Assembly (NCBI GenBank): GCA_027600665.1
Contig: JADGJL010000138.1
Span: 1-37,845 of the forward strand
DNA from: Irineochytrium annulatum
Taxonomy: Eukaryota > Chytridiomycota > Chytridiomycetes > Chytridiales > Chytridiaceae
DNA length: 37,845 nt
Reading direction: 5' to 3'
The position numbers and the translations under genes were made by a program. Every line of letters starts with the position of its first letter. Within the stretch, counting starts at the first letter, position 1. Positions 5,425-34,800 of the stretch are shown here, in pieces. The notes under the pieces are model-generated. The model was not told the DNA's origin, did not search any database, and saw nothing but the letters and a program-made list of their open reading frames with translations.

Positions 5425-7592
5425 TTACTCCTCCAGAATGACATGGCCCTTCCGCTTACGAAGCTCATCCTCAGCCTCAGCGTCAGCGACAGTCTCCACC
5501 TCCTTATCCTTCCCCACCATCTTCTCCTCAGCAACCGCAGAAGTCTTCCGGCTTGGCGCCTCCGTCGAAACCTTCGACACCTTCCTGACCGGCTGCTCGG
5601 GCGCAATCATGGCCCCCTCACCGGCCCTCAACCCGCTCGTGACCGGCTTCCCGTCCAAAATCTCCCTGCACCGCTCGGCCAACCGCACGGGAATCATCCC
5701 GGGGTTGCTCCGGTACAGCACCATGATCCTCAGCGCGTCGCAGGGCGCGATCACGCCTTCCTCGATCCTCTCCAGGCCCGCGATCACGGCCTCCCTGTCA
5801 TCCATGACGGCCCTGTACATGTTCGTGAGCTGGTACCGGGTGCAGTAGCCCAGCTCGAGGTGCAGGTCGATGCGGCCAGGTCGGATCAGGGCCGGGTCGA
5901 GGACCTCCGGGTGGTTGGTCGTCATGATGACGATCACGTTCTCGTTCATCATGTGGCCGTCGAGGCAGTTGAGGAGGGCCGAGAGCGTGAAGCCGGAGAA
6001 GAGGGGCGTGTCCCGGCCGAAGGAGAGGCCGCCGAACTTTTTGGAGTCGAGGTCTCCCAGACCGGGCAAGGAGGGGCCAAAGGAGGACGTGAAGGAGGAT
6101 GACCCGCCGAACTCGTAGTCCATATCGTCCGAGTCGGACATAAAACCCTCGTCCTCGACTTTCTCCTTCTCCTTCCCTTTAGTCTTCGTGACCTTCTTTT
6201 TCGGTTCACCATCCTCGTCCGCCTCCTCCTCGTCGTCCTCCGCCGCCTCCTCCGCCGCCTTCTTCTCCTCGGCCTCCTTCCGCTTCTTCTCCCGCTGCAG
6301 CCTCAGCTTCTCGACCTTGCGCAGCGTGAATCGCCTGTCGCGAGAGTGCACCTCCCCGCTCTGCGCATCGATATCCTCAAAAACTATGATGGAATTGCGA
6401 GGAACGGAAGAGAAGGCCGACTGGAGGGACGAGTCGTCGCGGATTTCCTTCAAGTTCATGTAGTACAAGTTCCTGTTGTAGGTGGCCGATATGGCGTTGA
6501 CGAGGGACGTCTTGCCGGTGCCTGGCTTGCCTGAGAAGAGGTACCCGCGGCGATAGGGCAGACCCATGCGCTTGTAGAAAGTCTCGTCCGAGTGGAAGGT
6601 CTCGAGATCCCGGGTCAGCAGCTCCTCCTGGACGCGATCCAGCGCGACGGACGTGAGGCCGCGGCACGCGCGAAGGTTCTGGACATGCTGCCAGTAGTTG
6701 TAGCTTGAGTGCCGCTCGTACCGGGCTCGGGAGCGCTTCTCCTTCTGATGCTTGTGGAAGAGCCTTGTGACCTCGTTCAGAATGTTTTGCATCCACTCAA
6801 GCGTGACCTCCTCGTCGTCGATGCGTTGGATGATGATCGGTGGCTCCTGATTTATTATCGAGTCCTCGTTCCGGTCGAGCTTCTTCTTCGCATCGGCGCC
6901 TTCGTCCGCATTCTCGGCGCGCTCAAAGTAGATCTCGAACTTCGCGCCTTCGTGCTCGATCTGGAGAGTTGAGTCGCCCCTGGGCAGGATGTTGAACTCA
7001 GGGATGTCGTACTCGTCGTCGGCCCCCTTCTCGGACTCAAAGGTCGCCATGCGGAAGGAGCCGGTTTTCTGGGACTTGGAGCGGAGGGAAATAAGCCAGG
7101 CCAGGGCGGTCCAGTGGGTGTTCGGGTGGGCCTGACCCCACTTGCCGAAGCGATGGAACTCAACCTTGACGCTGATGTTTTGGCGGATGACTTTAGGTTG
7201 GTTATCGCCGTCCAAAAGAGCCTTCAACAGGTTGCCGCCCGAGTTGAGGAGGGCCATACATACCTGTGGATGGATGAAAAAGGTGAAATTAGTCTGTGGA
7301 GTCTATGAAGCCACCAACGACCGAAACATCTAGCGGAACTTACTGTCACGCAGAAGGTGATCAAAAACATGTCCACAGCGACATTGCCAGTGTTGATTGC
7401 AAGATATGACGGCAGGAACGCGAGGAGGACGGCCTGCAGCTGCGACCCGCTGAGCAGAGAGACGATGGGATGGAGCGAGCCATTGTCCGCAATGGCGTCC
7501 TGAATCCCCTTCCTTAACCTCTCGGCCTGGTGCTTCGTGTCCTCGAGCAGCTTGAGGCCGCGCATCCTCATGTTGCTCTTCGTCCGCGCCAT
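5425..7592 (-). CDS. BCS1-like AAA ATPase
   Basis: Two exons, 7592-7344 and 7263-5425, with an 80-bp intron, give 695 residues. The N-terminus has a hydrophobic stretch (about residues 52-86), likely one membrane anchor, followed by a BCS1_N-type region (about 90-250). The AAA module has Walker A GKPGTGKTS (about 327), Walker B IIVFEDID (about 374), sensor-1 MTTNHPE and the arginine-finger segment RPGRID. Between Walker B and sensor-1 lies an insert of roughly 115 residues that is Lys/Glu/Asp-rich and then Ser/Gly/Phe-rich; similar charged inserts are known in fungal BCS1-like paralogues. True mitochondrial Bcs1 (about 450 residues) translocates the Rieske protein for complex III; the greater length and insert suggest this is one of the expanded fungal BCS1-like paralogues, with unknown substrate. 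The start ATG at 7592 is the first in frame. Confidence 0.9.
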
Positions 7593-8465
7593 GGGTATGT
7601 GTATGTGAATGAGGCAGATAAATGTGTGGTGTTGTTGGGGAGGGGAAGGGTTCTACTTAAAGTGATTTTAGTCGGGTGCTTTCTACTTTGGATGACATTG
7701 GACGGGATCTTCCACCTTTGCGTTGTGGTTGTGGCTTTTCCACTCCGCGTCCTCAGCTCGCAATATCCATCCCTCAGCGTCAGCATCGCGCCCCTTCCCT
7801 TGGCTGGCTGCGACAGCACTGCGGATCAGCAGTGAGCGAGTATCCGAGGCCTTGCTGGGAAGGGGGAAGGGGCCAGTCGGAGCGTGTTATCACATTTTGC
7901 CAAAGTCGCTGGTGATGATCCCATCCACCAACCAGGACGCCGTCCTCGGATCTTATTGTTCTCTGTCCTTCTGCTGCGGCGACGATCACGGCGTCTGCAT
8001 GATGCGCGTGCTGATGCATCCTGTTTGAACCACTTAAACTACGCGATTGCAACATTATGGTTGGACTTTCCACCGGTCTTCGACTGATCGCCCCAAGCCC
8101 TCCAAAATCATATCTGTTGCTTATGTAACCATCACTTTGTCCTGTGCTTTCATCATTGTCGGGAACTCAAAATAAAATTATGTAAAATAAAAGGCATCGC
8201 CGCTTGAGCAAGTGACGGTCTGCGGCCGTCGACGTTGACCCTCGCAATGCTGGCTGACTGATGACTTTTACGAGCATATTGGTTTTAATGCCTTTTCTTG
8301 ACAGTCTTGTCAGTGGCAGATGGAATCTGTCGGAAATTGACCACGGCCCTAATCATCCCCACCCCCATCACATCATCCATCCTGGATCTCCGAGCTCGAC
8401 CTGGATCCCCGGAGGCTCGAATTCCACGGCCCCGACTATCACAGCTCAAGACCTCCTAGTCGGTC
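7593..8465. other. Divergent intergenic region
   Basis: 873 bp between the BCS1-like gene and the Gag-protease-like gene, presumably carrying both promoters. I see no supported exon. A short segment at about 8390-8450, in a different frame from the downstream gene, encodes residues like FHGPDYHS that faintly recall the N-terminus of copia Gag. A TAG lies nine bases before the downstream ATG in its own frame. I could not recognise long terminal repeats. Confidence 0.4.
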
Positions 8466-10103
8466 ATGAAGAGCATGCAGCGCCACCCGGCCGCCGACGA
8501 CCTCCGCGCCCGCTGGTCCTCGATTACCTACACCCCGGCCGCCGAGACCTTTGATGTTTTCGAGTCGCGCTTCAACAAGATCATGCTCGACCTTCGCCGC
8601 GTCGGGTGCAACAGCCTGACGAGCCCGCGCCAGGTCCTGCGAAACCTCGCCCGCGCCGTCGAGCGGCATTTCACCAGGATCGCGCGCAGTATCAGGGAGG
8701 AAGCGGAGACGGTGGACGATGGCGAGGAGGGTTGCGAGGTCGTGAGGAAGACGTGGAACGGTTTGAGGCTATTTGATGAGCGACGCCGCAAGAACGGGAG
8801 AACGGGCCGACCCGATACGACCGTCCTGGTGGAGAAGTCGGCGCGAGGGTCGTTGTCGGATGGGGCGGGTCAGAAGTTGAGCACCGGGACGGACGGCGTC
8901 GTCAAGGACAAGAAGGGTTCCCTTGATCAGACGAAAAAGTCGGTCCAGCCGCCGACGAAGCGTACGTCCTTGACCGAAACGGATCCCCCAGCTAAGAAGA
9001 GGCCCAATCATGCTTCTTCAGAGTCCAACCCCTGCCGATGGTGCGGGAGCACGACCCACGACGGCTGCATTAAGTGTGGCAACTGCCAGGGCTACGGCCA
9101 CGCTCACCCGGTCTGCATCTCCCTCAATTCGGCGCTCCTCTCGTATCGGGCGAACTCGTCGTCGTCGTCGTCGTATGGGAGAAAACCGGGTGAGCCCTTA
9201 TCGGCGTCAAACCCGTGCCGGTACTGCGGGAGCACGGATCACGCTCGTTGCATCAGGTGCGGCCTGTGCTTTGGATGGGGGCATGAGGCGAGATCGTGCC
9301 CGGGGCGTGACTGGAAGGGGGCCACGGCGGTGGGGCAGCGGGGTTCTGTGGCCGCGGTGGAGAAAATGGATGTGGAGGAGAAGGGGGCACGCAGTACGGA
9401 CGGCGACGTGCGTGCCGAGGTGTCTGGCGAGCCGGTCGACGATCCGGCCTCGTCCCATCGGAACGGCGACGCGATCCACATTCGCCTTGGAAAGCGCGCT
9501 CGAGATCACGAGGAGGCCGATGATGACGCGCGCCTGACTAGACATGAAGGCACGATGGCGGAGGCCGCGTCGACGGGCTCGCAGCACGCGCATCAGCCTG
9601 AGCCCGCCGAGCAGGTAGCCGCGAAGGTCTCCGCCTTTCTTCGGATGCCACTCGTCAAGCGCGTCGAGGAGCCGGAGCCGGAGCCGGAACCCGTCGTCAT
9701 CCTCACGGCAGACGCGATCATCGACCCGGCCGCGACGCGCACGATCGGGAACGACAGGTCGCAGTTTGTTACCCTGGAGCCCGTACTCGACGGCGACGAC
9801 GGGGGCGTCACGGGCCGCGGTGAGCTCCTCGTCCGTGACGGCGCCGGCAACGAGATCACGGTGTGGGACGCGTGCCTCATGCCTTCGGCGCCGGTCGTCG
9901 TTTTGGCGGGGCGGGACGTCATGCGCGCTGGGTTTGACGTCAGGATGACGATGAGGGACCGGCGAGGGCCGGACGAGCGCGTCGTGAGGGAATGGGTGCA
10001 TCACTTGACGTGGGAAGTAATGGAGGCGGAGGAGAGGGAGGATGGGACGATGGTGTTGAAGGTGTATTTTGCCGATGGGTATAAGGGCGGCGACATCAGG
10101 TGA
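8466..10103 (+). CDS. Domesticated copia-like Gag-protease protein (zinc-knuckle)
   Basis: A single intact exon encodes 545 residues. Residues about 10-75 resemble the Gag (UBN2-type) helical domain of Ty1/copia elements: a Trp followed by hydrophobic-spaced helices. A Lys/Ser/Thr-rich linker follows. Two duplicated zinc modules (Cys190-Cys217 and Cys251-Cys278) each have the spacing CX2CX4HX2CX2CX2CX4HX4C, that is a variant knuckle directly followed by a canonical CX2CX4HX4C retroviral-type knuckle. After a second acidic linker, residues about 414-495 match the layout of a copia protease: IIDPAAT, then an RSQF segment, a GRGEL strand, a D..LMP segment and an LAGRDVMRAGF end. The catalytic Asp420 is kept but the usual DSGA/DTGA context is DPAA. 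No integrase or reverse transcriptase follows; a different gene ends about 330 bp downstream. Seen: motifs and open frame. Inferred: retroelement origin and host use, probably RNA or DNA binding. Confidence 0.65.
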   Translation: MKSMQRHPAADDLRARWSSITYTPAAETFDVFESRFNKIMLDLRRVGCNSLTSPRQVLRNLARAVERHFTRIARSIREEAETVDDGEEGCEVVRKTWNGLRLFDERRRKNGRTGRPDTTVLVEKSARGSLSDGAGQKLSTGTDGVVKDKKGSLDQTKKSVQPPTKRTSLTETDPPAKKRPNHASSESNPCRWCGSTTHDGCIKCGNCQGYGHAHPVCISLNSALLSYRANSSSSSSYGRKPGEPLSASNPCRYCGSTDHARCIRCGLCFGWGHEARSCPGRDWKGATAVGQRGSVAAVEKMDVEEKGARSTDGDVRAEVSGEPVDDPASSHRNGDAIHIRLGKRARDHEEADDDARLTRHEGTMAEAASTGSQHAHQPEPAEQVAAKVSAFLRMPLVKRVEEPEPEPEPVVILTADAIIDPAATRTIGNDRSQFVTLEPVLDGDDGGVTGRGELLVRDGAGNEITVWDACLMPSAPVVVLAGRDVMRAGFDVRMTMRDRRGPDERVVREWVHHLTWEVMEAEEREDGTMVLKVYFADGYKGGDIR

Positions 10104-10434: not shown

Positions 10435-13400
10435 CTATTTAAACACAACCTCCGGATTCTTCTCCCTCGGCTCCGAAGCCAGCGGCGCCGGCTCTTCTTC
10501 CGCCAACGTGCCCCAGCTGCCCCAAAACAACGCAACGAGCGCTCCCGACACCCCAAGCACGACTAAGCCAAACAAAAACGTCGCGGCGTAACCCCTCATC
10601 CCGCTGCCGCCCGCCTCCTCGTTCAGCGCGTTCGCCACGGTCTCTTGCACGGCCATCGTGACGCCCGTCGCGAGCTGCACCGCCGTGTTGAACACGCCCC
10701 CTGCGATGCCCCTGTCTTGCTCCGCAACCGAGCTCATGAGGACAATGTTGGCGACATTGAATGCCACGTCAAACCCGGCGACGATAAGGCATAGGGATGG
10801 GAACGGGAGCGTCCAATAGGAAGTGGTGTGGTCTACAAGCGCAAAGAGAACGCAGGCGATCATCATGCTCAAATGACCGAAAAGGAGGAACGGAGTTGGG
10901 TTTGGGTACCGCGATACTATTTCGCACGTTAATATACGCCCACCAGTCCGTAAAGATAGGAACTTACGCAGTAATCCGGTCCCTGCAGCTGTGATGAACC
11001 CGACGGCCACCATCGGAATCATATGAATGGCCGTCATGATGGGTGTGAAAGCGAAGACGTTCTGGAACGCGAGATTCGCATTGACTGAGAAGCCCTCGAA
11101 CGAGAAGACGATGCAAAAGATGACGACCAGTGTTAACGTCACACGCCTTGTAAAAATGTGACCCGGCACGAGCGGATTGGGTGTTTGGCGCTCCCAGAGA
11201 ATAAAAAGGCCGAATCCTACTGCGGACGCAATGAGAGGCGCGATGACTTGCCCTTGGTTCCACCCCACCGATGGGCCTGTCACGATGCCGTAAGTAAGCG
11301 CGAGTAGGGAGAGAGTCGAAAGGGCCGCGCCAACGATGTCGAGCCGCGGTGGGGTGACGTCAGAGATCTTGTCGGCGGGCAACACGAAATATCCAGCTAC
11401 CCAGTCGGCAAGGGCCACCATCGCGTACACAAAGAAGACCCAAGGCCAGCCTAAGGCCTCAGATAGAATTCCTAGAAAGGATTTGAGTAGACATTCGCGG
11501 AGATCGAAGCTTCTAGCCTCACCTCCTATGAATAACCCAAATATGAAACCGATCGGTGACGACGCCCCGAACATCGAGAAGGCCCAGTTTCTCTCCTTCG
11601 GCTCCGTGTACAAGTCCGCGATGCTGCCGAGCGCCGACGGGATGCTCGCGGCCGCGCCGACGCCCATGAGGGCGCGACCGATTACGAGCATGATAACGGA
11701 CCGCGAGAAGCCGCAGAAGACGGTGGCCGCGGTGAGCCAGGCCATGCCAATGAGGAAGACGCGCTTTTTACCATAGTAGTCCGTCAGACGACCGAAGAGA
11801 AGGAGGAGCGACGCAAACGACAATCTGGCGACATACACCGATGAGCTTACTTGCGGTGAAAAAAAAAGAAAAGGAAGAAAGGGACTCACGAATACGCTGA
11901 TATGATCCATTGCAACCCCCCGGAATCCGCCTGCGCATTCAATGCATTCGTAATAGCCGGCAACGCGATAACAACCGTTGACGCGGCGTATACATTTAAA
12001 AACTGCGCAGCGCACAACACGCAGAGCGCCAGCCTCTTTCCCGTCGCGCTCATATCCCCCACACCGCCCCGTGCGCCTAACACACCTTCATCTGAACCCC
12101 GTGCCGAGCCTGGTCCCCCCGAGCCCGAGCTCTCAGAAGACCGGTCCCAAGCGTGCGCTGCCGCATCGGTGGCATCGTAACCAAAGACGCGCTCCCGGTA
12201 CTCGGGGCATAACCACTTGCAAGGAAACGTCCCCTCCAACGGCCGACCACCAAAATGATGCTCCAGCACCCGGTCTCGCTCGCGCTGCTCGGCGCCAGGG
12301 TAAAGCTGGAACACGTCCCGCTGTCGTGCGCCGTCCCGCGCGGCGAACTCGTACCGTCGGCTCCTGATGCAGTCGAACGCACGCAAGGCGCGACGGAATT
12401 CAGGGAGCGAGTGGACGTCCGCACGGGACAGGAGGACGGCGAGGGCTGCGGCGTCTTCGAGCGCCAGATTCTCTGGCTGCCCGAGGTGCGAGGAGGTTGG
12501 ATGGGCTGCGGCGCCGACGAGGACGAAACGGCCCGAATTGTGAACGCGGTCCGCGGGGTGAATCTGCGCAGCCGTCATGACGCGGTGCTTGTCGGCGGAG
12601 TGGGCGTGCGCGAGGAGGCCCTGGAGAGGCTTATCCCAGGTGCGGAGGTGGTGGCGGATCTCGTCGAGGGCATTGCGGCAATGGTGCTCGGACGCAAGCT
12701 TTTCTGAGGCGTGAATGGTCAGATTATAGATCTTGCCGCTGTCAAGGGAGTAGCCAACGACATAAGCCCCGGGGCCGATCCTTTTTGAAGTGGTGTCAGT
12801 ATGTTTCCATTAAAAGTGAATACGTACCATAAACGAAGGGCGGGACGCGCGATCATCTCCCGTAGGTCGTCATCGATAACCTCTGCTATATTTATGGTAG
12901 CGGAATAAATGAACTCCTTCATCGGCACAGGGTCTGCCGAGGCCCTCTTTCCTAGGATTGCCTTCCTGCACCTTGAGTCAATCCCGTCAACGCCAAGCAC
13001 AAGATCTGCGCTGACGACCTTATCGGAATCGCCGTCAGCACAAGCATTTGATGAATACGCAACGCTTACCTGCCCGTCTGCTAGCGTGAACTCGCCTCTG
13101 GCGGGGTTGGCAGATTTCAAACCCGCGCCTACCCGCACAGAAACTCCAAGCTCCTTGACCTTGCACAATAATGCGGCCCGCAGGTCCCCCTCCGTCACGT
13201 TGCATATGAACGATATATAGGTCCTCCGGATCTCGTCACCAAACGACCCATCGAAGCCTAACGCGCGACTCCCATCGTGCCGGGAGATTAATAGCGATGT
13301 GGGCTCGTTTGAAATAGGCATCAAGCCCCTTATAACACCCCATGTGTCTAACACACGCGCCCCGTTGGGCGCTAGCTGGATGCCGGTGTGAGCCGGCGTG

Positions 13401-15353
13401 TTGGGGGCAGACGCGTCGCCGTAAATGGTTACACGATACTTGCCAGTCTCCGCGACGGCGATAGCAGCGGAGAGCGCACCGACTCCTGCGAACATTCACT
13501 TTCACTACGCTGCTCGAAGCCATCGTAATGTTAATTCCTACCTGTGCCGATAATCGCTAAATCCAATTTTCCGCGAGTCCCTGGTGCTCCGGGGCCTAAC
13601 GTTTGGGATGACAAATACAGGCTAGCCGCAACCGCAGCCGTGCGATCCGCGAGGGTAGAATGAATCTCCTTCTCCTGCGACGTTGCGGCTTTGGCCGCCT
13701 GAAGCGGAAAGATCGGACCCATACGGGCAATCGAGGGCGTTGCTTCCGCCTCGCCGTGCTGTAGCTGCGCCACCGTCCGTGACGAAACCGCCGCGGAGAT
13801 CGTTATGGCGAGTGACGATTCAATCCTTGATGGATATTGTAAGGAAGACACCGTTGGACTAAACGGTATAGCGGCGGTCTCGGTTGGGGCGGGTTTCCGG
13901 TTCCGAACATCGGTTTCTACATCGTATCCGAAAATCGTCGGCTGGTGCTCCGGAGCCATCCACAAAAGTGACATGGGCTTTTGGGTCTCACCGACAGCAT
14001 GTCGAAGAATCGCGCGCTGAGTGGCTTCGAGGCCCATTAGCGTGTCACACCGCTCCCTCCTCATATTATCGTAGTCTTTTAGAGCCTGTGGCAGGTCCGT
14101 CTTCTCTAGCATGAGGTCCAAAAGAACGCTAAGTGTTTCTGCGTCTTCCAGAGCGACACTTGCTCCCTGGTGAAGATAGGGAAGGTCCGAGTGCGCGGCG
14201 TCCCCTAGTATAACGAGCGAGGACGTTTGGCTGACCCAAGTCGGCAGGGCCGGGACGCTCATTAAACGCCATTTGTCCACCGAAGTCGCGAGAGTCGCCA
14301 GGCTGCAGAGAAAGGGATCCCAGGTGGTCAACACGGCAGAAAGTTCGGCGACGGTTGCTTTTTGGTGAAAGACGGCCGCTGGCATCGTGCTTTGCGCAAA
14401 TAGCGTCACGCAATAATCGGTGCCATGAGGCATCAAATAACCCTCGGCGTGAGCGTCAGGTCCCAACCTTCGATAGAGTGAGCCGCCACGCGTTTGACAT
14501 AAAATAAAAACGGACCATATTCGGAGACCGGGGGACGTCGCTACCCTGAGCAAAGATGAATCCATATATGCAATGGGTACGACAAATTTAAAGACGCATT
14601 CGCCTGTTGGGACTGGGTCGCACCCATCGGCACTGCCGACTATCTCCATCCTGCATCCGGACCACAGTCCATCCGCACCGATAATCAGGTCGGCTTTTCT
14701 GGCCTGTTCGTGACAATATCAGTCTCAACCGTTTAACATTGAGACGTACCGCCCCGTCATTCAATGAAAACGTTCCAGCTACGCCGTCGACAGCTACCAA
14801 GTCGGACGCGGTTTTTATTGTGACTCCCAGAGACTTTGCCTTATTCATGAGCCCCGTGTGGAACTCGTTGTCGCTGAACATCAGGGCTGGCGCGGAATAG
14901 GCAGCCTCCAAAGCAGCGGATAGGCCCAACTCATGCGCTAGCACTTCCGACCCATCCCGTCGAACCAGCGTCAACGCCTCGAGCGTTGTTGTCGTGGAAA
15001 GCATCTCGCCGAGCAGGTTCCATCGCCGTAAAATCCGCGTGCCGTTCGGAGTCAACCGAAGTCCAGCGGAGCCCCACTGATTCACCTTTGCACCCGGGCC
15101 AGAGTCGTACACTGTGATATTGTGCTTCCGCTTTCCAGTGGCAATGGCAATGGCTGCGCCGAGACCGCTGATACCTGCGTCGTGAAAAAAAAAATTCAAT
15201 GTTTATAGGTTCAAAGAAGTTCTAACCGCCGCCGACGATCGCGATATCCAACACGACTTCCTCTTCTGCAGGTGGAGGGTTGAGGAAAAAGTCCGAGAAT
15301 TTCTGCGCCGGCGGAACTGGCGGCCCCCTCATCAGACTCTTCCGCAAGGACAT
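10435..15353 (-). CDS. Tandem FAD monooxygenase-FAD monooxygenase-MFS transporter fusion
   Basis: Ten exons (15353-15227, 15174-14750, 14703-14516, 14467-13542, 13485-13070, 13018-12828, 12780-11890, 11824-11523, 11471-10968, 10916-10435) keep phase and give 1483 residues. Module 1 (about 1-435) is a PHBH-fold FAD monooxygenase: IVGGGISG (about 38-45), GADG (about 191), WLGP (about 247) and LGDAAH (about 334). A ~110-residue Ala/Ser/Thr/Pro linker runs into module 2: IIGTGVGA (about 552), GVDG (about 704), WIGPGA (about 758) and VGAAAHP (about 845). After a Ser/Gly linker, module 3 (about 1001-1483) is a DHA2-type MFS transporter with motif A GRLTDYYGKKR. The module 1-2 and 2-3 junctions lie inside single exons (14467-13542 and 12780-11890) with no stop. 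Monooxygenases of this group hydroxylate or epoxidise with NAD(P)H and O2; the transporter suggests export. Internal ATGs (near 13720 and at 12053) could allow shorter products. Substrate unknown. Confidence 0.8.
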
Positions 15354-16215: not shown

Positions 16216-18849
16216 TCACATTCGCTGCAAAGCAACGACTCCCAGCGTGGCCAACGCATTGCCGAGCGTAATCCTAGCGGCCTTGAACATCGCCAGACGG
16301 GCTTCTGCGATCTCCGCCGGCTGGTGAAGGACAAACAAGTTTTCCAAGGCCACCATCACGGCGTGAGCCAGGCGGAAAGCATAAGTCACGATTTTACAGG
16401 GCTCTAACGAGATAGACGCCTCCCTAAAATCATGACACAACAAACGAGTTAGATAACAAAATCAGCGCATGCCCAAAGTTACCGCAAAACATCCGGGTAC
16501 GCCGCTATCACAACCAGAAGCGCTATCGCCGAAGGTTCCGTCAACATTCTGAGGTTCGTCTTCGGCGAGGCCTCGACGGGGGCTGTCCGCTCGACGGAAC
16601 ACAGCCGAGCGTGCGCGTACTGCAGGTAAGGACCCGTGTCACCGTGGTCGAACGCCTGCATGCGTTCCCAGTCGAACACATAGCCCTTAACACGGCGAGA
16701 CCTAAGGTACTCGATCGTGACGGCCGCCATCCCAACCTGATCCGCGACCATCATCGGGTCGTCGATGTCGTTGTACTTCAACTTGTTCTTCTTCATCACC
16801 TCCAGCATGGATTTTTGCATCCAATTAAGGAGCTCCTCGAGGAGGAGGACCCGGCTTGTTGGCGTGATCATGAACTTGTGCTTGATCATACCGAAGCCGA
16901 TGTGTTGGCATTTGCCCGCCCACGGCAGGCCCAGCAGCTCCAGGATCTTGAAAAGCTGCTTAAAGTGATGCTCTTGCTGCAAACGTATTGTTAGCATGTT
17001 GCTATTTGTACGAGAGCCACGATCGTTTGTACCTGACTGCCAATGACGTAGTACATGTTGTCAAACTTATACATCCTCTCACGGTCAATCGCGGCCGCGA
17101 TATGACGGGAGATGTAAAGCATGCCCCCCGTCCCGCTCCTCTCGATGACGGCAGCGTGGAGCTTGTGTTCATTCAAGTCGATGATTTGCGCACCGTCGGA
17201 CAATGTTAAAAGGTTTAGCTCCTCCAGCTTGTCGACAACACCCCGCATATGAATTGTGGAGTACTCGGCTTCGCTCGAATACACGTCGAACGAGACGTTT
17301 ACGCGCTTATAGCTTTCGCGATATTTGGAAATGGTGAGATCCGTGAGCCGCTGCCATAGACCCAGTGCTTTCTTGTCACCTAGTGCACGAATGTCAACGG
17401 CAATAGTAAGCCAACGAGTACTCTACCTTCTTCCATGCGAGCGAAGTAGGCTCGCGCCTTCTCGTCAACCGACTCGTCTCTGAAATTGTCTTTCTGCAAG
17501 CGTAGTGGTCAATGATAGCCTTGAATAGCTCCAAACGGCAAAGACTTGCATTGATATTCACAAACACTTCGTAAAGATGGCCAATGGGATCCTTGACAAG
17601 GCTCTCCTCTCTCCCGAACTTCTCAAACCCAATAGCCAGCAGACCTATAGCGAGATTACCCGCCTGAAGATACATAAACAAACGTACCACATCCCTTTCC
17701 CCAGTTCCCGAAGTAGTTGATCGATACCGTCGCCCACCCGCTCGCGTTCAAAATTTTTTCAACAAAGTTTCCGAAAACAATACTCCGCAAGTGGCCGAAG
17801 TGGAACGGCCTTGCAATATCGGGGCTGCTGTACTCAACGACGGCAATCTTCCCAAAGCCGAGCGAGTTCCGACCGAAGGCAGAGCCCTCCCTCAGAACCT
17901 TCGGGATCAGCTTATCCCGGAAGTTGTCGTGGTTCATGTGAAATCGCAGGAAGATCCCGTTCGCTTTCACCTTGCTGATAACATTCCCATCGACAACGAA
18001 CTGAAAGAATATGCTCTTACGTGAGAACGGTGCTTTCATAGAACGGAGATTTCGGGCTCCTCTCACCTTCGCTTGTAGCTCCTTCGCCTTCTCGAAGGGA
18101 TTCCCGGCAATCTTTAACCGAGGCACGGCCATCACAAAGTCCCCTCCTTGCGAGTCCTTTGGCTGACGGTTCTCAAACAGCGGGAGAATCATCGCCGTCG
18201 GCACGCCAGTGATCGTCGACAGCTGGCTGGCGATCGAGTATCGGATCTCGTCCAGCAGGTTCGCCGTCGCCAGCGTCTCATCCACGGCCTTCACCGCCCG
18301 GGCCACCTCGGGGATCCGATCCATCGTCGCCACCCACTGGTCCACCGATTTGGACTTTCCCCCCGCGTGCTGCCGAGCCAGGTCCCACGCGATCAGGTCG
18401 GCCAGCGTCAGGCCCTTCCCGTCCATCGACAGGCGGTTCTCCCTCGGTGATTCCAGTCGCTCAATCGGGCGCCGCACCCAGTCCGACGTCGCAGTCGCGA
18501 AGACGCATGATCGCGAGAAGTCGATCCACTTGTCGATGTGGCCCTGCGTGTCGAGCGGCAGGCCGCCGTAGAGGGCCTTCCCGTTCGTCGTCGCGAACTC
18601 GTGCGTCATGTACCGGGCGACGGCGCTCTTCCCGGTCAGCGTCACTCGATCTGCGGAGCGCGAGCCGGCGGGAATGATGAGGTGGCAGGTTGTGTTGGTG
18701 AGATCCAGGTGCAGGCCGAGGCGCAGCTGCCACCCGGCCTTCGCGTCGCCCTTCCGCGCCAGGAAGTAGGCGGCCGTCTCCGCGTAGGGTGCGCAGGCGG
18801 GGGAGAACAGCAGGTACAGGGTCTCCTTGTGCCTTTCGATGGCGCTCAT
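16216..18849 (-). CDS. RARS1: Arginyl-tRNA synthetase with GST-like N-terminal domain
   Basis: Seven exons (18849-18067, 18000-17688, 17644-17550, 17493-17427, 17379-17033, 16976-16483, 16423-16216) give 768 residues. Class Ia ArgRS charges tRNA-Arg. Residues about 1-195 resemble a glutathione-transferase fold, especially its C-terminal half (HIDKWIDF, then LTLADLIAWDLA). Then come the ArgRS N-terminal (tRNA D-loop-binding) domain, the HIGH-type signature PFHFGHLRS, the NWGK..LLAIGFEKFG block, and the anticodon-binding helices containing DTGPYLQYAHARL. The usual KMSKS-like MSTRKG loop reads MITPTS; many ArgRSs lack a canonical KMSKS. The third intron (17549-17494) has GC..AG ends, supported because the join gives the family-typical VNINKD. 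The first intron (18066-18001) is 66 bp and stop-free, so retention would keep frame. A GTG 33 bases upstream is not used as start; ATG 18849 is first. Confidence 0.92.
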
Positions 18850-19872
18850 CGTTGTCGTTGTCGCCGTCGTCGGTAGTGGCACTGCATGAGAAGAGTTGTT
18901 ATGAACCAGAAATGATTGATGACTCGAATGACAATTTAGCTCTCGTGCACGTTGTGAACAAGTCTGGTTCAGTGCCCAGGTGATCGAACCGGAGTTCTTA
19001 ATCGAATATGATGCCAGCTGCCCTCCGCTCGTTACCGGCTTCTCACTCCAACCAAACCCTTAGGTTCTGCGTTGTTACCAGGCGCGCCCTGGTCCACCTT
19101 CCTCATCGGTAGGCACTTCTCCTCCTCCTCCTCCCACACGAGTTCGCCGGAAAAATTGAAGACCTCGTCAACATCTGCCTCGGTTCCTCGGCGTGCGGGG
19201 AGACGGAAGCTTCAATCCGCGGCCTGGTTTTTTAGGGGATAATGGGAAGAAAGATGGAGGAAAAGTAGGAGTGGTGAAGGTTTGGCGGGAGCAGGAACAT
19301 GATGTCGAACGAGGAGCCAGGACGATACCATGTCAGCGTTGGAACGCGCTGAGCCTTGGCCTCCCCCACGAGGCAACCGTTCCCCGCAGACTATTCGGGC
19401 AACCCGGGACCGCACCTGGTGTTGAACCATTGCCTTCATGGGACTCAAAGGAGCCATGTGGGCTCTGTGCTTGCCTCCATTCCCTTCCGGGGGGGAATCT
19501 CTTTTGTGTGGTTCTATGAGTGGAGATTGTTTATATGCCTACTCGGCAGGTTTACGATAACAACCTTGAGTTTTACCTCTTGCCAATCAGAAGCTGATAT
19601 CGGTAAGAATCAAAATGCGTACTCATATATTCAAATGGTAGATCTAAGCGTTTACGTACCAAGGAACTGATTGATTTACAGCGACAGAGAAAAAACGAAA
19701 TATGATGATGTGGAGACGAAAGATACAGATGAAAAGGTCGGGAGTGACTACAAAAACGGGCGCTACAACAACTACGCAAACAAAGAAAAGTATGCAATCC
19801 ACTTTCCACTCTACTGCACAAACGCGACCATAACTCCACACACTCCAAAGCTATTCTTGTTCCACACCGGAT
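18850..19872. other. Intergenic region upstream of ArgRS
   Basis: About 1020 bp between the ArgRS start and the 3' end of the ADIP-like gene. It should carry the ArgRS promoter and the neighbour's 3' UTR. Open frames on both strands are short and featureless; I saw no tRNA cloverleaf or repeat. The part after about 19560 is AT-rich. Confidence 0.4.
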
Positions 19873-31800: not shown

Positions 31801-34800
31801 GGTGAGGTTAAATACTTTTAGCGCATATTTTAAATCGATATTAGGCTGGAGAACTCTTTGAGAAGCTGGGAAGTAACGAACGCGCGCTTGACGCTTACAG
31901 GAGGGGTAAAGCCTTCCGCGCCGCTGTCGAGCTTTCCCGCATGTTCTTCCCGCATGAGATCATTAACCTAGAAGAGGTACTAAGTTGAGCTTTTTGCGTG
32001 GATACTGACCCAAATGAAGCAATGGGGTGATCACTTGGTCTCGCAGAAGCAGATGGATGCCGCGATCAACCATTATATTGAGGCCGGGAAGTCCTTCAAA
32101 GCTATTGAGGCTGCAATTGGGGCGAAGCAGGTAACGGGCTTCAAATTTATTTTTATATCTTACCTCTTTCTGCCGCATCGAAGTGGAAGAAGGCCGTTGG
32201 AATTTTGGACTGCCTGCAACCGCCCGACAGCGGGAAAGCATACTTCCTCGAGTTGGCGAAGCACTTTGCGAATGTCTCCGACCTCGCTCTCGCCGAGAAA
32301 TACTTCGTGCAAGCCGGAAAGCCACAGGAGGCCGTCGATATGTACACGAAGGCGAACAAATGGGAGAAGGCCCACGCCCTTGCGACGACGTACATGTCCC
32401 CAGAGGAAGTCGCTTTCCTGTACATCTCCCAAGCGCGCGAGATGGAGGGCCAGGCTAAGTTAAAGGAGGCCGAGAAGCTTTACTTGACAGTCGGGGAGCC
32501 GGATTTGGCGATTAATATGTACAAGAATCACAAGCATTACGATCAGATGATTCGGTTGGTTACGGCGTACCACAAGGACCTTTTGATCGAAACGCATCTG
32601 TACCTGGGGAAGACGTTGGAGACGGAGGGCAACTTTAAGTTAGCGGAGCACCATTACGTGGAGGGTAAAGATTGGAAGGCGGCCATCAATATGTACTGCG
32701 CAAATAGCTCGTATGAGGACGCATACCGGGTATGTTTTTGTATCATCGTCGTAACGTCCTCAATTAACGGCGTGTCAAGATTGCGAAAAGCTATGGTGGC
32801 CCCAACTCGGCAAAGCAAGTCGCGTACCTGTGGGCGCGATCCCTCGGCGGCGAATCGGCCGTGAAGCTATTGACAAAGTTTGGTCTGCTCGAGGCGGCGA
32901 TCGACTTCGCGACCGAAAACAATGCCTTCGACTTCGCGTTTGAGCTTAGCCGGTTTGCCGACAAGTTCAAGCTGTCGGACGTGCACTACAAGCACGCCAT
33001 GTTCCTCGAGGACAACGGCAAGTTTAAGGAGGCCGAGAATGCCTTCATCCTTGCGGGCAAACCGAAGGAGGCGATCCTGATGTATATCCACAATGAGAAT
33101 TGGGAAGCGGCGCTGTCGGTCGCGGAAACGTATGATCCGAATAGCGTCGGGGAAGTGCTGGTGGGGCAGGCAAAGGTGAACTTTGATCGAAAGGACTTTG
33201 CAACGGCGGAGGCGTTGCTGTTGAGGGCGCAGAGACCGGATCTCGCTATTAAGCTGTACAAAGAAGCGGGGAACTGGAAGGAGGCGTTACGGTTTGCGAA
33301 GGAATACCTGCCGAATAAGCTTTCGGATGTTCACGAGGAGTATGACAGGCACCTTGCCGGGCAGAACAACTCAAGTCGAAAGGATGAACTGCTCTCCACG
33401 GCGCGTTCGCTTGAACAACAGAAGGACTGGTCGCGGGCTATCGACATGTACCTCAAATTCAACGTCCCGCAAGTCACCGACCTCACTTTCCTGGAGGAAG
33501 TCTGGGAGAAAGCCGTCGGGCTGTCGATGAAGTATGTTCCCGATAGAGGACACGATGTGGTTTCCCTAGTATGCTCTCGCCTAATAGGCATCAAGAAATT
33601 CGAGCAAGCGGCAGAGTTCTACTCGAGCGCTGAGATGTACAAGGAGGCCATCGATGCGTATATCAACGGCGGGCTATTTGACAAGGCGAAAGAAGTCGTG
33701 AACCTCGCCCCGAAATATGCAGATTATGTCCAGTCTTCTTTGGTTTCGCACCTGAAGACTCAAGGGCAGGCGGATCAACTAGTGAGCGTGAATATAACAG
33801 CAGGATTGGATCTGTTCGCTCAGCGTGGAGAGTGGGACAAGTGCCTCGAGACGGCTTCCAAGCATGTGAGTTAAAACGTCATTCGGCCGAATGCTAATCC
33901 AATTAAAGGGACCGGACGTTTTGAACAAATACCTATCCATTTACATTGTGTCTTTGATTAAGGAGGCGAAGTACGAACAGGCAGTTCAATATGTTGCGAA
34001 ATATGGCATATCGGCAAATCCTGGGAACTTTGATATGTATTTAAGACTGTCGCGAGAAGTTCTCAATCGAGGTTCAATCGCGAGCTTGACGGCACTAAGA
34101 GAGATCTTATTCAAGCTGGTGAGCAACCGTATTTCATGCGCATTAGATCTAAATATCATGCGAAGGTACATGGTTCTTCATCTCAGTCGGCGCTGCCAGC
34201 GGATTTCTCGAGATTGCTATTTATTGTCCATTTGTTGACCCTACGTAATTACTGCGCCAGCAAACGGGATCTGTGGGTGTTTGCGGCAAAGCAGGCAATA
34301 TCGCTGCTGCGCTATTCCAGAGAGCTCGGACCAGACCGTGCCTTCTACGACGCGGGGACGTACGCAAAGGTACGTTGCTTCCCGAGAGTGATAGTGGTAA
34401 CCGTCTACACTTGTAGCAAGCTGGGATGAACAATATGGCGTTCGTGTGTTGGAATCGTTACCTGGATTTGAGCGACGCGATTGAAGAAGGGGATGCTTCG
34501 ATGTTGGAAAATGCCGACTTTGAGAACACGGACGTCCCATACGACATTCAGCTTCCAGAGGAAAATATGCCGGTATGTATTCGCAAATTGCAGTTGCCAC
34601 TTTTTTTTAACCATCCTCTAGGACGCAAAACGGGATGAGGTCCGAGACTGGGTGCTCCAGGTCTCGCTTGATCAAAAGATTAAGCAAGAAGTGGATACGA
34701 GGGATTGTGAGGAGTGTGGCACGAGCATCTATGACGCTTCCCTATCGTGCTACAACTGCAAGAGCGTATGTGAACCCTGCATAATCACCGGTAACTACAT

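Follow-up and report, generated by a model that had tools for sequence, protein, structure and literature searches.

One open frame for two flavin monooxygenases and a transporter in the chytrid Irineochytrium annulatum

Whether an enzyme hands its product straight to an exporter is a question usually approached through gene neighbourhood or loose complexes. The gene described here lies on the minus strand of a 37,845-nucleotide stretch of DNA (contig JADGJL010000138.1; the window) from Irineochytrium annulatum (Chytridiales, Chytridiaceae), one of the simple and mainly aquatic fungi known as chytrids. It holds two flavin monooxygenase (FMO) modules, FMO1 and FMO2, and a major facilitator superfamily (MFS) transporter module in one frame. 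If its product is a natural covalent enzyme-exporter, direct handover to an exporter becomes testable.

Group A flavoprotein monooxygenases are recognized by flavin motifs named GxGxxG, DG and GD. The closest described members of this group are the decarboxylating 4-hydroxybenzoate and vanillate 1-hydroxylases, a likeness given by the best three solved matches. These are 8gsm, 8x38 and 8r2t for both modules (the top three of 43 for FMO1 and of 36 for FMO2). According to the structure names, 8gsm is a 4-hydroxybenzoate decarboxylase and 8x38 a decarboxylative vanillate 1-hydroxylase. The matches to the best solved chains cover at most residues 3–378 of 421 in FMO1 and residues 2–426 of 435 in FMO2. 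An excerpt of PMC12915361 describes TvMNX1 as clustering with CpMNX1 and VibMO1, which are 4-hydroxybenzoate 1-hydroxylase types. The aligned relatives are single FMO proteins of 427–481 aa, whereas two joined copies and a transporter are present here. For the MFS module, the nearest solved types are DHA2-type exporters, with EfpA first, followed by QacA-type transporters and EmrB.

One frame across three modules

The gene is described by a ten-exon splice model with the following features.

10435..15353, minus strand: whole gene, FMO-FMO-MFS, 1,483 aa, ten exons, one terminal TAG
15353-15227, 15174-14750, 14703-14516, 14467-13542, 13485-13070, minus strand: exons 1-5
13018-12828, 12780-11890, 11824-11523, 11471-10968, 10916-10435, minus strand: exons 6-10
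13900..15353, minus strand: module 1, N-terminal lead (residues 1-33) and FMO1 (34-436, borders approximate), exons 1-4
13570..13899, minus strand: linker 1, residues 437-546 (110 aa), A/S/T/P-rich, inside exon 4, with Met496 (13722-13720)
12159..13569, minus strand: module 2, FMO2, residues 547-965 (borders approximate), degenerate flavin motifs, exons 4-7
12030..12158, minus strand: linker 2, residues 966-1008 (43 aa), G/S-rich, inside exon 7, with Met1001 (12053-12051)
10435..12053, minus strand: module 3, DHA2-like MFS transporter, residues 1001-1483, exons 7-10

An earlier note on this DNA had proposed ten phase-consistent exons in one 1483-residue frame, and the present model is the same, with gene ends identical to the base. 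Both junctions lie in continuous exons (4 and 7) and no stop separates the modules, as the note had also stated. The single FMO-FMO-MFS frame is thus confirmed in the DNA. The gene structure is uncommon and truly in the sequence: known parts in a new order.

The expected architecture of two FAD_binding_3 domains and one MFS_1 domain is borne out, with all three Pfam matches above their curated cut-offs. FAD_binding_3 (PF01494) is found in module 1 (E 1.4e-11, 44.7 bits) and in module 2 (E 1e-6, 28.7 bits), with a cut-off of 22, and MFS_1 (PF07690) in module 3 (E 1.5e-46, 159.4 bits, cut-off 33.4). The predicted mass of the whole protein is 158 kDa, within the anticipated 155–160 kDa.

The nine introns are 46–65 nt long, all are of the GT...AG type and all have a G at +5 (9/9). 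Their GC content is 0.31–0.47 and a branch-like motif is absent from one of them (intron 8). Outside the linkers, about 1,330 codons of the model are free of internal stops. When exon 4 is read unspliced past junction 1, the first in-frame stop is at 13533, inside intron 4; the corresponding stop past junction 2 (exon 7) is at 11888, inside intron 7. The frame of FMO1 would therefore stop only past the first strand of FMO2, and that of FMO2 only past the first membrane helix, so that separate genes would overlap. These stop positions are a stronger argument for fusion than the stop-free linkers alone. Rfam and tRNA scans gave no matches.

The locus corresponds to GenBank HK101_001973 (P0001, hypothetical protein, 1,388 aa), which is likewise predicted as fused; the fusion is therefore already public as an unnamed prediction. 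Compared to the present model, HK101_001973 lacks residues 212–302 of FMO1 and 28 residues near 1324–1352, and it has seven additional residues from part of intron 7 and 17 from all of intron 8. The 17-residue insert is absent from both stand-alone MFS relatives (HK101_008892 and an Obelidium protein).

Apart from this unnamed entry, the earlier statement that no protein of this order has been described stands within the reach of the searches. No description of such a fusion was found in the literature searched, and no second FMO-FMO-MFS protein was present among 10 matches to the full-length query or 11 matches of a further search. Each protein search was confined to the 8,000 candidates with most words in common and could miss distant cases. 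The search for MFS relatives, of which the best 120 of 313 matches were considered, was by length unable to show a fusion of this size. One candidate for a second FMO-FMO protein, suggested by its length (P0020, 902 aa, Mycena), consists of one FMO and unrelated sequence.

The monooxygenase and transporter modules

FMO1 and FMO2 share 31% identity (130 of 419 aligned positions). Each has three introns, and those of FMO1 are listed with their counterparts in FMO2.

15175..15226, minus strand: intron 1, phase 1, in the GxG loop of FMO1; aligned place and phase match intron 4 (13486-13541) in FMO2
14704..14749, minus strand: intron 2, phase 0, in the strand before ADL; aligned place and phase match intron 5 (13019-13069) in FMO2
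14468..14515, minus strand: intron 3, inside the Trp codon of LRIW (LRxW), phase 2; place and phase match intron 6 (12781-12827) in FMO2

Positions and phases are common to both modules in 3/3 cases, which points to one intron-bearing FMO ancestor that was duplicated. An alignment and tree of 11 rows were made from FMO1, FMO2 and nine of the 11 search proteins (P0014, which is near P0013, and P0020 were left out). In this alignment FMO2 has 30% identity to FMO1, six ascomycete proteins have 31–36%, P0018 and P0019 26% each, and P0021, also from an ascomycete, 22%. With these values an old duplication or uneven rates have to be considered. None of the eight inner branches of the tree, which has no named characterised MNX1-type members, is well supported and long branches meet; with such poor support the tree neither favours nor rejects a sister relation between FMO1 and FMO2.

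The genome searches gave no other close FMO: with FMO1 as query, one weak match was found outside the locus, on contig C459 (1/5 rows), and with FMO2 as query none (0/4 rows). The genome's strongest listed FAD_binding_3 match is a 535-aa frame at G000:C872:20581-22119, with a phenol-hydroxylase-type tail (Phe_hydrox_dim) below threshold (23.6 bits vs 24.9).

The two modules differ in their flavin motifs. FMO1 keeps GxGxxG (GGGISG), DG (GADG) and GD (GDAAH). FMO2 keeps DG (GVDG), but its GxGxxG is degenerate (GTGVGA), with Ala in place of the last Gly, which is kept in 10/11 rows. At the GD site FMO2 has GAAAH and at the QG site QP, where GD and QG are each kept in 9/11 rows; the lost GD aspartate also sets FMO2 apart from the decarboxylating 4-hydroxybenzoate and vanillate hydroxylases. 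Because FMO2 departs at three flavin-motif sites, two working hydroxylations by the fusion are doubtful, and FMO2 may be a dead partner domain. These departures do not prove inactivity, since P0018 departs at the GD and QG sites as well.

P0018 (Rhodofomes roseus, 481 aa) is a single fungal FMO. It has GQ and QV at the GD and QG sites and lacks the arginine of the HR-x-DL pattern considered below.

Transporters of the DHA2 type have 14 transmembrane helices, and by general MFS topology the N-terminal side of the MFS module should face the cytosol. Hydropathy peaks number 13 in the MFS module and likewise 13 in its paralogue in the same genome. This paralogue stands alone on contig C572 (HK101_008892, P0022, 559 aa), is 56% identical and is spliced letter-for-letter as in GenBank. 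An in-frame stop precedes its ATG by 16 codons, and three genome searches (PF01494 profile, FMO1, FMO2) gave no FMO match on its contig. An Obelidium mucronatum MFS protein (P0023, 502 aa), 49% identical, also stands alone. In the fusion, on the other hand, the first membrane helix comes only after about 1,000 residues of FMO and linker sequence. The start of the Obelidium protein, itself a gene prediction, aligns two residues from Met1001, which places the probable fusion junction shortly before the former start of the transporter. Given the stand-alone paralogue and the stand-alone Obelidium relative, the fusion was probably made by loss of stop codons.

Our preferred reading, held tentatively and with slightly less than even confidence, is that one I. 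annulatum gene encodes a membrane-anchored enzyme-transporter that arose by FMO duplication beside an MFS gene and by stop loss. A tandem duplication of a group A flavin monooxygenase gene would have taken place next to a DHA2-like MFS gene. Two stop codons would then have been lost, joining three frames, as suggested by the introns common to the two FMO modules and by the aligned start of the stand-alone MFS protein. We read the fusion as a putative hydroxylase of phenolic acids joined to a DHA2-like exporter. The substrate of FMO1 is probably a phenolic acid; going by the names of the nearest solved relatives, the most likely reaction is a hydroxylation with decarboxylation that gives a hydroquinone. 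For FMO2, a role in docking, in regulation or in holding the product is more likely than a second catalytic activity, and the MFS module would export the product or a related phenol. The frame, its domains and introns, the motif losses and the stand-alone relatives are observed directly; production as one polypeptide, the substrate, the direction of export and any channelling are inferred, and channelled export of a hydroxylated product is a candidate role.

A more specific form of this proposal is unlikely as a whole. The single polypeptide would combine an active FMO, a non-catalytic FMO that accepts the reactive hydroquinone or shields it, and an exporter, and the toxic, redox-active phenol would never be freed in the cytosol.

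Intradiol dioxygenase is the expected ring-opening step of the hydroxyhydroquinone route. Searches of the I. annulatum genome with three intradiol-dioxygenase profiles (PF00775, PF04444 and TIGR02439) gave no match, although such profile searches can miss genes. The genome does contain homogentisate dioxygenase, found in three pieces. An unburnt, toxic hydroquinone would presumably be worth exporting. If the preferred reading is true, MNX1-like phenolic-acid chemistry is present in a chytrid in which no intradiol ring-cleavage enzyme was found. Furthermore, the gene would be a case of fusion in which the stand-alone transporter start is still readable and one domain is apparently decaying.

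The transporter of a real fusion might instead import phenolic acids for the FMO, as hydroxybenzoate permeases feed yeast MNX1. In Candida parapsilosis, according to PMC5566891, hydroxyaromatic substrates raise the expression of MNX1 as well as of the hydroxybenzoate transporter genes HBT1-4, a co-induction that favours uptake. However, the profiles and solved structures that match the MFS module best are efflux types, and the missing intradiol-dioxygenase match, within the limit of such genome searches, also argues against import. We consider uptake very unlikely.

Linkers and alternative readings

Several observations weigh against the enzyme-transporter reading, and most of them concern the linkers. 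Linkers without a stop are not unusual by chance. In first-order Markov simulations from each linker's own sequence (n=5,000 each), linker 1 was stop-free in 355 (7%) and linker 2 in 1,936 (39%). The codon scores are low as well. A score trained on 13 matched stretches of the same genome, a weak test, has a mean of 0.020 (sd 0.070, minimum -0.248) in 174 true in-frame windows and of -0.167 (sd 0.121) in 870 other-frame windows. Linker 1 scores -0.123, about two sd below the in-frame mean and near the other frames, and is outscored by its own +2 frame (-0.095). Linker 2 scores -0.428 and is low in all frames. GC content by codon position is not coding-like in either linker (0.59/0.62/0.59 in linker 1, 0.67/0.72/0.63 in linker 2). 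The codons of Met496 and Met1001 permit internal starts, and the fusion is read from the DNA of one species.

The remaining points concern the modules. The arginine of HR-x-DL, a pattern seen in this alignment rather than taken from a class definition, is kept in 8/11 rows and is absent from FMO1 as well as from FMO2 and P0018. Among NCBIfam profiles the MFS module matches TIGR00711 (DHA2/EmrB) best, with 142.3 bits, below the curated cut-off of 230.2. In the genome search with PF01494, in which 20/30 candidates were scored, the two FMO modules of the window (contig C146) are not among the 14 matches listed, although as spliced proteins they exceed the Pfam cut-off. This miss is a sensitivity limit of the genome search on intron-split genes. 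As profile searches can therefore miss genes, the absence of intradiol dioxygenases is soft.

The absence of stops in the linkers thus exceeds chance only modestly; the domains certainly exceed it. If the modules must in addition be in phase across the two junctions (1/9), simple arithmetic puts accidental continuity at about 0.3%. The codon test is weak because the two ends of the model give values close to that of linker 1 (N-terminal lead -0.103, C-terminal tail -0.133), and the FMO and MFS modules themselves reach only -0.017 to -0.071. Low-complexity linkers and former untranslated sequence would both give such scores. On the evidence of the DNA the fusion is probably real.

If the frame is continuous, separate products could still be made from it: an FMO from early-ending transcripts or from those retaining intron 4 or 7, and the transporter from an internal promoter or from Met1001. 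Retention of intron 4 leads to the stop at 13533 and that of intron 7 to the stop at 11888. Met1001 is placed close to the predicted Obelidium start, Met496 is ahead of FMO2, and the linkers have no coding-like score. The space between the modules is, however, just ~330 and ~130 bases. Neither A[AT]TAAA nor TATA[AT]A is found in the linkers, which says little because the gene's own flanks are without these motifs too. Separate products are somewhat unlikely in our view.

A missed base in a linker could also hide a stop, and the locus would then consist of two or three ordinary tandem genes. The other two frames contain stops (2 and 3 in linker 1, 2 and 2 in linker 2), so that one indel could end the frame. 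The frame rests on one assembly, and the linkers do not look coding by score. Such a fault would, however, have to fall in one of two short stretches, while the ~1,330 other codons are clean. A sequencing or assembly error is quite improbable.

Hidden introns that would bring a stop into the linkers were considered and rejected. The 9 + 6 GTNNG...AG candidates have a GC content of 0.61–0.67, compared with 0.31–0.47 in the nine introns of the model, and none has a branch-like motif.

Neighbouring frames

Ten other open frames of the window (35 are listed) were scanned. Seven have Pfam matches over the cut-off, one has sub-threshold matches only and two have none. The seven families are an AAA ATPase, arginyl-tRNA synthetase (twice), a pseudouridine synthase, BTB, an IFT-type TPR protein and KA1. 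A metabolite or detoxification cluster, in which FMO and MFS genes are common neighbours, is not seen among the ten frames scanned, as none of the seven families is of a metabolite-cluster type.

A frame on the 3' side (8460-10103, plus strand, 547 aa) is convergent with the fusion gene and ends 331 bases from its 3' end. By eye it has two CCHC-like zinc-knuckle stretches and a gag-like look; it has no Pfam match. Upstream and on the same strand as the fusion gene lies an arginyl-tRNA synthetase (16479-19059, minus strand), with tRNA-synt_1d in two frames and DALR_1 under the cut-off. In the frame 17656-19059 the synthetase match starts only at residue 400 of 467. The AAA ATPase (5425-7302, minus strand), which we take to be BCS1-like, has by eye a long charged low-complexity stretch inside the AAA region. 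The TPR protein (32768-33874, plus strand) is of the IFT172/IFT140 type, as expected for a flagellated fungus.

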